Shown: in pieces, positions 13,350 to 17,959 of the stretch | Layout of the letters: the number at the start of each line of letters is the position of its first letter | How positions within the stretch are numbered: the stretch's first letter is position 1 | NCBI GenBank assembly: GCA_017482465.1 | Contig: JAFUMW010000130.1 | Span: 1 to 43,200, forward strand | Direction of reading: 5' to 3' | DNA from: Clostridia bacterium | Lineage (GTDB): Bacteria > Bacillota > Clostridia > Oscillospirales > CAG-272 | Length of the DNA: 43,200 nt | Position numbers and translations under genes: made by a program | Notes under the pieces: generated by a model | The model's input: only the letters and a program-made list of their open reading frames with translations | Told to the model about the DNA's origin: nothing | The model's database searches: none

Positions 13350-13378
13350 TTTACAAAACCGATTTTTTATAATATAAT
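13350..13378 (+). promoter_or_regulatory. Promoter of the cysteine T-box operon
   Basis: TTTACA (13350-13355), 17-nt spacer, TATAAT (13373-13378), directly before the T-box leader. Confidence 0.75.
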
Positions 13379-13379
13379 G

Positions 13380-13616
13380 TAAGTACATGTTTGAAAATAG
13401 CAATTAAAGGCAGTGATCGGGAAGAATCCGCACTTTACCCTGTTTCAGAGAAATACGCCTCGGCTGAAAGCGTATACAGAGTAAGCGGGCTGTGCCCCCG
13501 TGAGTCCGCGGAGCAAAACTCCGCGCGTATGTCCGCGTTAAGGAATCAAAGTTATAAATTAAAGTGGAACCGCGACTCTGCCGCCTTTATGTTATTGCAT
13601 ACAGGCGGCTTTTGTA
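13380..13616 (+). promoter_or_regulatory. T-box riboswitch, tRNA-Cys specific
   Basis: The leader has the T-box core AAGTGGAACCGCG (13562-13574), a Stem I with GAGAAA/GCTGAAAGC elements (13447-13472), and a likely specifier codon TGC (Cys) at 13493-13495 followed by CCCCGTGAGT. The tRNA-end binding bulge is UGGA, whose last base would pair with discriminator U73; tRNA-Cys has U73, which supports the assignment. A perfect CGCGGAG/CTCCGCG hairpin (about 13507-13525) is likely Stem III. A terminator stem, GCCGCCT (13580-13586) with AGGCGGC (13603-13609) then TTTT, competes with the antiterminator. Uncharged tRNA-Cys should turn on cysE-cysS and the downstream lipoprotein. Confidence 0.92.
13580..13613 (+). 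terminator. T-box regulated intrinsic terminator
   Basis: GCCGCCT/AGGCGGC stem with a 16-nt loop containing an additional ATG/CAT pairing, followed by TTTT. It partly follows the ACCGCG of the T-box, as expected for the alternative to the antiterminator. Confidence 0.85.
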
Positions 13617-13664: not shown

Positions 13665-14309
13665 ATGGGAGATCTGAGAAATACGATAAAGATCATAAAG
13701 GAACGCGACCCGGCGGCAACATCAAGTATACAGGTCGCACTTTTGTACTCGGGATTTCATGCTATATTGGCGTATAAGCTTTCGCATTGGCTTTATAAGC
13801 ATAAATGCTTCTTTTTGGCAAGGCTTGTAAGCCAGCTTGCAAGGTTTTTCACCGGTATCGAGATACATCCGGGTGCAACTATAGGAAAGGGTCTGTTTAT
13901 AGACCACGGAAGCGGTGTTGTTATAGGCGAGACCGCGGTGATCGGAGACAATTGTACGATATATCAAGGCGTTACCCTCGGAGGTACGGGAAAGCACACC
14001 GGAAAGCGTCACCCGACGCTCGGCAATAATGTTATGGTCGGCGCGGGAGCAAAGGTCCTCGGACCGTTTAAGGTCGGGGATAACTCCAAGATAGCCGCAG
14101 GCGCGGTCGTACTTGACGAGATACCCGAAAACTGTACGGCGGTCGGTATACCGGCCCGTGTTGTAAAGCAGGGAGACAAAAAGGTCGGGACAGATCTTGA
14201 CCAGGTACATATACCCGACCCTGTGTCTCAGCAGTTCTGCAGACTTCAGGCGAGAATAGACGCGCTTGAAAAAAAGCTGAGTGAATTTGAAGAAAAAAGC
14301 GACAAATAA
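13665..14309 (+). CDS. cysE: Serine O-acetyltransferase
   Basis: Makes O-acetylserine from serine and acetyl-CoA, the first step of cysteine synthesis. The 214-aa product has a short N-terminal helical region and a left-handed beta-helix of hexapeptide repeats: IEIHPGATIGKGLFIDHGSGVVIGETAVIGDN, YQGVTLGGTGK, NVMVGAGAKVLGPFKVGDN. The catalytic DHG (around residue 83) is present. It has the short N-terminal form typical of Firmicutes, and ends in a coiled, charged tail. ATG at 13665 has AGGAG at 13650-13654. First gene after the Cys T-box. Confidence 0.95.
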   Translation: MGDLRNTIKIIKERDPAATSSIQVALLYSGFHAILAYKLSHWLYKHKCFFLARLVSQLARFFTGIEIHPGATIGKGLFIDHGSGVVIGETAVIGDNCTIYQGVTLGGTGKHTGKRHPTLGNNVMVGAGAKVLGPFKVGDNSKIAAGAVVLDEIPENCTAVGIPARVVKQGDKKVGTDLDQVHIPDPVSQQFCRLQARIDALEKKLSEFEEKSDK

Positions 14310-14327: not shown

Positions 14328-15722
14328 ATGAAATTTTATAATACACTTACAAGAACAAAAGAAGAATTTACCCCGATCGACCCGTCATGCGTAAAGATCT
14401 ACGCTTGCGGTCCGACTGTATATAACTATTTCCATATAGGAAACGCGCGTTGCTTTGTTGTGTTCGATATGCTTCGCAGATATCTTGAATACAGAGGCTA
14501 TAATGTAAAATTCGTTCAGAACTTCACCGATATTGACGATAAGATGATTAAGCGCGCCAACGAAGAGGGTATTACGGTTAAAGAGGTCGCTGAAAAGTAT
14601 ATAGGCGAGTACTTTACGGATGCTGGAGGACTTGGAGTCGTTCCTGCAAGCGTACACCCCAGAGCAACCGAAAATATTGCCGAGATAATCGACATAGTAA
14701 ATACGCTTGTTGAAAAGGGGCATGCGTATGAGTCAAAGGGCGATGTGTACTTCCGTACAAAGACATTCAAGGAGTACGGTAAGCTTTCTCACATGCCTAT
14801 TGACGAGCTTGAAGCAGGCGCAAGAATAGAGATAGGCGAAGCCAAGGAGGACGCTCTCGATTTTACTCTTTGGAAAGCGGCAAAGCCGGGAGAACCCAGT
14901 TGGGACAGCCCGTGGGGCAAGGGCAGACCGGGTTGGCATATCGAGTGCTCGGCGATGGTTCTCAAATATCTCGGCGAGAGCATAGATTTCCACTGCGGCG
15001 GACAGGACCTGACCTTCCCGCACCATGAAAATGAGATCGCGCAGTCCGAGTGTGCTACCTGCAAGACCTTCGCGGCAAGATGGATGCACAACGGATATAT
15101 AAATGTTGACAATAAAAAAATGTCAAAATCGGCAAACAATTTCTTTACCGTGCGCGAGATATCCGAAAAGTACGGCTATATGCCTATAAGATTTTTTATA
15201 CTCAGCTCGCATTACCGCAGTCCGATAAACTTCTCACAGGATATAATCGAGCAGTCAAAGACCGCGCTTGAGCGTATCTTTAACTGCCTTGACAGCACAG
15301 AGTTCTATCTTGAGAGCGCGCCTGCGGGTGAGCTTGACATGAGTGTACGCGAGCGTGTTGACGCACGTAAGGCGGAGTTCATCGCCAAGATGGATGATGA
15401 CCTTAACACAGCTGACGCTATCTCGGTGATATTTGACCTTGTTCGTGACGTGAACTCGTATGTAAACGAGGACAAGGCAAACGCCGCGTCGGTAAGATAC
15501 GCGTATGATCTGCTTGCCGAGCTTACAGGGCTTATGGGTCTTAAGAGAGACGAGCTTGACAGTGCGCTTGAGCAGGAGATAAAGAAGATGATCGAGCTTC
15601 GACTTATCGCGAAGAAAGAGAAGAATTACGCGGAAGCCGACAGGATACGCGCTGACCTTCTTGCACGTGGCATAGTGCTTGAGGATACTCCCGGCGGAAC
15701 AAAGTTTAAGATAAACAAATAA
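14328..15722 (+). CDS. cysS: Cysteinyl-tRNA synthetase
   Basis: Class I aminoacyl-tRNA synthetase, 464 aa. HIGN at residues 36-39 (HIGH motif), KMSKS at 264-268, and zinc ligands C27, C207, H232 and E236 are all visible, as is FTDIDDKMIKRA. ATG at 14328 follows AAGGAAGG, 18 nt after cysE. It is under the Cys T-box, so low Cys-tRNA charging should raise both cysteine supply and this enzyme. Confidence 0.97.
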   Translation: MKFYNTLTRTKEEFTPIDPSCVKIYACGPTVYNYFHIGNARCFVVFDMLRRYLEYRGYNVKFVQNFTDIDDKMIKRANEEGITVKEVAEKYIGEYFTDAGGLGVVPASVHPRATENIAEIIDIVNTLVEKGHAYESKGDVYFRTKTFKEYGKLSHMPIDELEAGARIEIGEAKEDALDFTLWKAAKPGEPSWDSPWGKGRPGWHIECSAMVLKYLGESIDFHCGGQDLTFPHHENEIAQSECATCKTFAARWMHNGYINVDNKKMSKSANNFFTVREISEKYGYMPIRFFILSSHYRSPINFSQDIIEQSKTALERIFNCLDSTEFYLESAPAGELDMSVRERVDARKAEFIAKMDDDLNTADAISVIFDLVRDVNSYVNEDKANAASVRYAYDLLAELTGLMGLKRDELDSALEQEIKKMIELRLIAKKEKNYAEADRIRADLLARGIVLEDTPGGTKFKINK

Positions 15723-15734
15723 TCGGAGGTCGAA

Positions 15735-16538
15735 ATGACTGTGAATAAAATACGATTTACTGCGCTTTTGCTTTGCATAGTGCTTATTATGTGCGGATTG
15801 ACTTCGTGTGGTCTTGCAGGCTCGGGCATAGAATCCGAAGCAGATTTGGTGAATAAGAAGATCGGCGTAGTTGAAGGCTCAAAGAGCGATACCTACGCGC
15901 AGAAATACGTGGAAAAGGGATGCGAGATCATCAAGTATAATTCGCGTATTGACATGATAAAAGCGTTTGATGCCAATGAGATCGATTGTGCCGTGGTAGA
16001 TAAAAACCACGCTGATGTACTCGCAAGAGAGTACGATACTCTCGAAGTGCTCCCCGATGTACTTGGAGAAGACAGCTTTGCGTTCTATATGCTCGAAAGC
16101 AAAAGAGTTTATACGATCATGCTCAACAAGGCGCTTGCCGCACTTAAGGAAAACGGTACCGTGGACGAGATAGTCAACGGTTACTTAAGCGATCCCGAAT
16201 ACGAATATGAGTTTGCAAGTGAGCATGACACGAGTAACGGCACATTCAATATTTCGCTTGACCCGTCAATGTATCCGTATGTTTATGCGGCTGATGAAGA
16301 GCATCCGATGCCGAGAGGTATTGCGATCGCGCTTGTTGACGCGATATGCGAATATCTAGGATGCGGATATACGTTTATGCCCGTGACCACTCTGTCGCTC
16401 AACAGTACACTTTATTTGGGAACGGCGGATTTTTCGATAGGCACATTTACCCCCTTAACAGCTGAAGCGTCGGGGATGGCAATCGTCGAATCCGATCCTA
16501 TTATGACCTACAGCCATGCAATAGTCGTGAAGAAATAA
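15735..16538 (+). CDS. Solute-binding lipoprotein, SBP_bac_3-like with permuted halves
   Basis: A 267-aa lipoprotein: signal peptide then lipobox LTSC (Cys about residue 25). The order of SBP_bac_3 elements is reversed. Residues about 36-155 match what is normally the second part (DLVNKKIGVVEGSKSDTYA, IDCAVVDKNHADVLA, LNKALAALKENGTVDEIVNGYL). Residues about 170-267 match what is normally the first part (NISLDPSMYPYVYA, GIAIALVDAICEYLG, DFSIGTFTPLTAEAS, SDPIMTYSHAIVVKK). This is a circular permutation, or the remainder of a tandem pair trimmed at both ends. ATG at 15735 has CGGAGG upstream. Being third in the Cys T-box operon suggests cysteine or cystine as ligand; no permease is adjacent. Confidence 0.8.
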   Translation: MTVNKIRFTALLLCIVLIMCGLTSCGLAGSGIESEADLVNKKIGVVEGSKSDTYAQKYVEKGCEIIKYNSRIDMIKAFDANEIDCAVVDKNHADVLAREYDTLEVLPDVLGEDSFAFYMLESKRVYTIMLNKALAALKENGTVDEIVNGYLSDPEYEYEFASEHDTSNGTFNISLDPSMYPYVYAADEEHPMPRGIAIALVDAICEYLGCGYTFMPVTTLSLNSTLYLGTADFSIGTFTPLTAEASGMAIVESDPIMTYSHAIVVKK

Positions 16539-16577
16539 TATAAGTGCCGAGGCATATGCCTCGGCACTTATATTATT
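16534..16577. terminator. 44-bp perfect palindrome, bidirectional terminator
   Basis: A 22-bp arm is followed by its exact reverse complement, with AT-rich outer and GC-rich inner parts (AAGTGCCGAGGC/GCCTCGGCACTT). It contains the stop codon of the lipoprotein gene on the plus strand and the stop of the AraC-family gene on the minus strand, and serves both convergent transcripts. Confidence 0.88.
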
Positions 16578-17614: not shown

Positions 17615-17641
17615 TTAGATAATAATGTTTTGGAGGCGGCA

Positions 17642-17959
17642 ATGGGGATCAAATATAATTTCGGAGCATATCCGACTATGATAACACCGTATACCGATGA
17701 CGGTAAGGTCGATTATGAGACCGCAAGGAAATATGTAAGATGGTATTACGAAAACGGATGTGACGGCATATTTGCCGTGTGTCAGTCGAGCGAGATATTC
17801 TATCTTTCTCTTGAGGAACGCGTAAAGCTTAATAAGAGCGTTTATGATGAGGTAAACAAGCTTTCCGAAAACGGCGGCAGACGAATGACGGTCGTGTCAT
17901 CGGGACACGTCTCTGATACACTCGAAGAGCAGGCTCATGAGCTTAATATGATCCTGTAA
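17642..17959 (+). pseudogene. Truncated dihydrodipicolinate synthase/N-acetylneuraminate lyase family gene
   Basis: Only the first 105 aa of a normally 300-aa TIM-barrel aldolase remain: FGAYPTMITPYTDDGKVDYE, YYENGCDGIFAVCQSSEIFYLSLEER and VVSSGHVSDTLEEQA. The Schiff-base lysine and later strands are missing. GGAGG at 17632-17636 precedes ATG at 17642. The frame ends at TAA 17957-17959, a few codons after the sequence switches, in another frame, to a sialidase-like gene: a deletion junction. Confidence 0.85.

Follow-up and report, generated by a model that had tools for sequence, protein, structure and literature searches.

Why does a binding lipoprotein whose two halves stand in exchanged order lie third in an operon headed by a cysteine-type T-box, and what might such a protein bind? 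The question is raised by an open reading frame at positions 15735-16538 of the forward strand of the window, the term used here for the whole analyzed stretch of 43,200 nucleotides (contig JAFUMW010000130.1 of the Clostridia bacterium assembly GCA_017482465.1). An earlier sequence-only reading of this DNA had described the product as a circularly permuted SBP_bac_3 lipoprotein and had proposed that it senses or captures cysteine or cystine. To our knowledge, natural circular permutants of ATP-binding cassette (ABC) binding proteins have rarely been described. The features of the gene and its operon are as follows.

13350..13378 (+): TTTACA-17-TATAAT promoter-like site upstream of the T-box, an 11/12 match to the consensus and a consensus match only.
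13404..13591 (+): T-box leader of the Cys type (RF00230, 76.6 bits, E 7.4e-17, full model 1-219 aligned), with orthologous leaders in three other genomes.
13493..13495 (+): T-box specifier codon TGC (Cys), aligned to the specifier position and invariant in seven leaders.
13665..14309 (+): cysE, serine O-acetyltransferase, with hexapeptide repeats and a weak SATase_N match; it adjoins cysS in many relatives.
14328..15722 (+): cysS, cysteinyl-tRNA synthetase of 464 aa, 80-90% identical within the genus and 54-65% in related families.
15735..16538 (+): circularly permuted SBP_bac_3 lipoprotein of 267 aa.
15735..15809 (+): lipoprotein signal peptide with the lipobox LTSC; the Cys25 codon lies at 15807-15809, and Cys25 is invariant in an alignment of 14 permuted proteins.
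15825..16190 (+): canonical second half placed first (aa 31-152), comprising lobe 2, the returning strand and the C-terminal helices (AncQR 107-229; 4ymx 134-260).
16191..16232 (+): linker between the ancestral C- and N-termini (aa 153-166), the least conserved segment of the mature protein, with 21-57% identity to orthologues.
16233..16535 (+): canonical first half placed last (aa 167-267), with the first hinge strand HAIVVKK at its end (PF00497 3-92; AncQR 5-104; Foldseek of the isolated half).
16536..16575 (+): hairpin of 18 bp followed by U's, overlapping the stop codon (-30.6 kcal/mol, z -10.6).

A good ribosome-binding site, GGAGG, lies ahead of the ATG of the frame. The Pfam SBP_bac_3 profile (PF00497) scores 38.4 bits against a gathering cut-off of 26.4 (E 1.2e-9) and does so in two stretches, of which the C-terminal one, residues 173-267, corresponds to profile positions 3-92, the start of the family. 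Against solved structures, residues 31-149 align with positions 108-229 of AncQR (4zv1) and residues 164-267 with positions 5-104. A profile of four orthologues scores better than the single protein and gives the same swapped assignment, with residues 30-149 on 4zv1 107-229 (45 bits) and residues 164-266 on 4zv1 5-104 (20.8 bits); taken together, the two segments span the entire canonical chain a single time, with its halves swapped. The protein reaches the gathering score of the family and shares homology and the two-lobed type II fold, the latter as a prediction, but departs from the usual definition in two respects, the order of lobe 1 before lobe 2 and the Arg that binds the α-carboxylate, both of which it lacks. 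Because of this swapped order, it is classed as a permuted variant and not as a typical SBP_bac_3 member. The frame encodes a natural circular permutant of the SBP_bac_3 fold. The coordinates, the lipobox and the exchanged half-order given by the sequence-only reading are borne out by LTSC at Cys25 and by the two swapped PF00497/AncQR segments.

AlphaFold2, run on 14 permuted sequences, yields a bilobed model (mean pLDDT 90.3, pTM 0.81). Structural comparison with VIA-align places model residues 28-153 on residues 134-260 of 4ymx at 1.6 Å over 124 residues (Z 13.0), which sets the first half of the model on the C-terminal half of an amino-acid substrate-binding protein (SBP). Superpositions on SBPs in the native order also exist and are led by OpuAC (2b4l), which VIA-align ranks second with Z 12.9 and 4.6 Å over 206 residues; the Z values of the permuted-half and native-order matches are tied, within an overall range of 10-13 to SBPs. 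The high rank of OpuAC could be taken to mean that the protein is no permutant at all but an OpuAC-like or other native-order SBP that resembles SBP_bac_3. This is extremely improbable, since each half is similar in sequence to SBP_bac_3 in the swapped order, and the rmsd in the native order is far larger than that of the permuted half; an OpuAC-like native order was rejected for its loose superposition. The OpuAC match is read as what would be, on the model, the ordinary similarity between two lobes. The sequence-only reading had recommended structure prediction and comparison, which returned a confident bilobed model and a close fit of the permuted half, and it had named a match in the normal order as contrary evidence, of which only the loose OpuAC superposition was found. 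When the isolated lobe-1 half is folded alone, the model is middling (pLDDT 71), and its Foldseek list consists nearly entirely of SBP_bac_3 first lobes and their close kin. The predicted structure supports placing the new chain ends at the first hinge strand (...HAIVVKK). The earlier suggestion of a circular permutation with new ends at a hinge crossing thus finds support in sequence, orthologues and structure prediction.

A profile search of the genome contigs found no orthologue when the single protein was the query and three when an alignment was used. These orthologues, in three other sampled genomes of the genus (Clostridia metagenome-assembled genomes, one of them from yak rectum), show 67, 49 and 40% identity, and all four genus genomes share the arrangement Cys T-box-cysE-cysS-permuted SBP. 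The homologue search proposed in the earlier reading thus recovers the same swapped order throughout the four. Each of the four genes is a single frame of 264-271 aa without internal stops, dS is saturated and dN is far lower. Rejected on these observations were an assembly or chimera artefact (the order recurs in four genomes), half of a tandem protein (a single frame in 4/4) and a decaying gene (no internal stops in 4/4, with dS and dN as given).

The best overall match in the Protein Data Bank is the tandem protein 6h30 (GlnPQ SBD1-SBD2), and the alignment spans the junction of its two domains, as is expected of a permutant. The same alignment, along with the (lobe 2-lobe 1)n-permease fusions that occur in relatives, could also point to a degenerating remnant of a tandem or fused SBP with its outer halves lost. 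We consider such a remnant very unlikely, as no tandem orthologue was found among the four genomes and the frame is intact and under sequence constraint in all of them; none of the orthologues represents half of a tandem protein with deletions, the second outcome that the sequence-only reading had set against itself. From the sequence comparisons, the permutant is likely to have originated by duplication followed by trimming.

The architecture extends well beyond the genus. Three segments were scanned across Clostridia: A, the start of lobe 1; B, lobe 2; and C, the returning strand with the last helices. Next to the canonical order A-B-C, Clostridia contain the order B-C-A, cut at hinge 1 as in the window protein, with a closely similar variant whose cut lies just within lobe 2 (L073, L079, L080); the order C-A-B, cut at hinge 2 (L038, L081-L083, L135-L138); and multi-copy (B-C-A)n-permease fusions (L035, L036, L068, L069, L131). 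At two of these loci (L068:2089-5487 and L069:1424-5014), one polypeptide of ~1130-1200 aa comprises two permuted SBP modules, a permease and an ABC ATPase. A profile search of 245 class-level genomes detected full-length hinge-1 permutants (E < 1e-70) in 12 genomes outside the genus. Permuted SBP_bac_3 proteins, which between them use at least two cut sites and mostly belong to complete ABC operons, were seen at L034, L037, L038, L066-L073, L078-L085 and L119-L138; L037 was sorted automatically as canonical, is hinge-2 permuted by eye, and was left out of later tests. Permease and ATPase genes adjoin the permuted SBP in nearly all of 37 other loci, and the window group departs from this pattern as an orphan with no permease nearby. 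The commonness of these proteins in Clostridia was not foreseen in the sequence-only reading, and standard annotation silently calls them ordinary SBPs.

For the tree, all sequences were first rotated to one order, and the topologies group strongly. A single origin of the hinge-2 type is rejected (p-AU 8e-5), and a single origin of all permutants together is rejected more weakly (p 0.025); a single origin of the hinge-1 type including the window group is not rejected (p-AU 0.22). Judged from these sequence trees, the hinge-2 cut site arose at least twice. The window group lies on a long branch and for this reason is not firmly placed.

Natural permutation of binding proteins has precedents, of which the SBP_bac_3 permutant is a variant. 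In Treponema pallidum, the tethered ABC binding protein Tp0684/MglB-2 is naturally circularly permuted and retains both ligand binding and closure (PMC4990184). It differs from the window protein in being a type I/cluster B glucose protein of another family with another cut, in which three N-lobe strands moved; the window protein is SBP_bac_3 and type II by sequence and fold and does not belong to the TpMglB-2-like type Ic/cluster Bc. Among type II proteins (cluster F), the glycine-betaine binding proteins OpuAC and ProX are circular permutants that were recognized structurally (PMC2395249), but they differ in family and ligand, and the relation was detected between distant proteins with < 24% identity. 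The SBP_bac_3 amino-acid binders (GlnH, AncQR 4zv1, 4ymx and the GlnPQ SBDs) are homologous to both halves of the window protein in sequence and structure. Compared with these canonical proteins, the window protein has its halves swapped, its lipid anchor at the hinge instead of lobe 1, its carboxylate Arg lost and no permease partner nearby. Other permuted SBP_bac_3 proteins of Clostridia (L119-L130, L066, L067, L007) share the hinge-1 cut and the order of the window protein, yet they lie in complete SBP-permease-ATPase operons and retain the conserved Arg, and none turned up in a cysE-cysS operon. A search of open PMC papers, a collection of partial coverage, yielded no paper on permuted SBP_bac_3 proteins. 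Permutants appear to be common within a single large protein family and among gut bacteria; at least two cut sites are used, each located at a hinge crossing. The effect of moved ends on permease docking, opening and closing, or anchoring becomes testable, and permuted proteins of this kind offer naturally occurring templates for biosensors, in which hinge-located ends are sought.

In the operon, cysE is followed after a gap of 18 bp by cysS and, after 12 bp, by the permuted SBP gene. The T-box score of 76.6 bits lies below the Rfam gathering score of 93 although the full RF00230 model aligns; by all marks of its sequence other than that score, the leader at 13404-13591 is a T-box. The UGC specifier and the TGGAACC antiterminator bulge (UGGN) are invariant in seven leaders, three of which come from other families of the order. 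Default annotation misses this Cys T-box, which scores below the Rfam gathering score, and likewise those of the genus's three other genomes. The hairpin at 16536..16575 is a probable bidirectional terminator closing the operon. The sequence-only reading had placed the gene third in a Cys T-box operon, which agrees with the RF00230 match, the UGC specifier and the order cysE-cysS-SBP. It had also held that the gene lacks a permease of its own, and indeed neither the window nor the orthologue loci retrieved yielded an amino-acid ABC permease; PAAT-type (amino-acid-type) permeases are present elsewhere in the same genome. In related families, cysE-cysS pairs occur, in some cases with T-boxes, but no SBP accompanies them. 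Since the T-box-cysE-cysS operons of other genera have no SBP, the SBP gene probably joined the operon in this genus, and the link is genus-specific.

The ligand can be approached through the pocket. In canonical SBP_bac_3 proteins, the Arg of the TPER motif clamps the α-carboxylate. All four orthologues lack this Arg, whereas it persists in all nine of the permuted transporter relatives that were compared; its loss in the orthologues argues against a canonical amino-acid binder. Asp89 of lobe 2, which by position we take to be the residue that binds the α-amino group in canonical members of the family, is the same in all four orthologues. Judging by these residues, a free amino acid bound in the canonical manner is an improbable ligand, and binding may have been altered or lost along with the Arg. 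Near-identical permuted SBP paralogues that flank an ABC ATPase (L034:4014-4820, L034:5846-6649, L071:2142-2945) are also without the carboxylate Arg. All mature cysteines beyond the lipobox (C63, C85, C205 and C210) are invariant in 4/4, compared with about one quarter of all columns, and their invariance makes disulfides or thiol chemistry at these positions possible. NCBIfam gives no specific ligand assignment, with all scores far below the cut-offs. Only the co-regulation suggests cysteine or cystine as the ligand.

Direct computation gave the domain order and its retention across four genomes, the bilobed model, the location in a Cys T-box operon, the absence of any nearby permease and the occurrence of this architecture in complete ABC operons of other Clostridia. 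The reading that we favor, with somewhat better than even confidence, is that of a permuted SBP_bac_3 lipoprotein, induced by Cys starvation, that catches a cysteine- or sulfur-related compound for a permease encoded elsewhere. An old permutation would have put lobe 2 and the C-terminal helices ahead of lobe 1, giving a chain that has both termini at the first hinge strand and keeps the two-lobed clamp; the product would be a membrane-anchored extracytoplasmic binding protein. In T-box biology, uncharged tRNA-Cys turns such an operon on. During cysteine shortage, uncharged tRNA-Cys would accumulate and the T-box would permit readthrough of the operon, raising cysteine synthesis and tRNA-Cys charging. 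The displayed lipoprotein would then capture an external compound connected with the supply of cysteine or sulfur and deliver it to an ABC permease of the amino-acid type whose gene lies elsewhere in the genome. Against this stand the operon without a permease, the Arg lost in 4/4, the T-box-cysE-cysS operons of other genera without an SBP and the tied Z of OpuAC.

A narrower proposal, in which the permuted protein itself binds cysteine or cystine, as the sequence-only reading had it, and feeds a shared cystine permease, draws on the Cys T-box control, the cysE-cysS neighbors, the invariant Asp89 and the best Foldseek match of the isolated lobe-1 half, a cystine receptor tied with many others. 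The missing TPER Arg, which the permuted transporter relatives keep, and the cystine-SBP model of NCBIfam, which scores far below its cut-off and below the Lys/Arg/Orn model, make it unlikely. The clamp could also have been repurposed for a non-transport sensor or redox lipoprotein, whose four conserved cysteines would engage in disulfide bonds or in reactions with thiols or sulfur species. The absence of a nearby permease, the lost Arg and the invariant cysteines would fit such a role, but there is no fused or adjacent signaling partner and C85 is also present in permuted transporter SBPs, and we judge it distinctly unlikely. A broader account, which we put forward as a doubtful conjecture, is that Clostridia repeatedly re-cut the amino-acid-binding clamp at hinge crossings, moving the membrane anchor to the hinge; in this genus, one permutant would have become separated from its permease, given up the amino-acid clamp, acquired conserved cysteines and turned into a receptor for a sulfur or thiol compound, induced by cysteine starvation.

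A minor observation concerns window positions 17630-17959, which hold the first 109 aa only of a DHDPS/N-acetylneuraminate-lyase-type gene, followed by the tail of an unrelated frame. The site looks like a deletion junction; in genome G003, an intact 313-aa homologue lies directly after the permuted SBP gene (L031:8193-9134).
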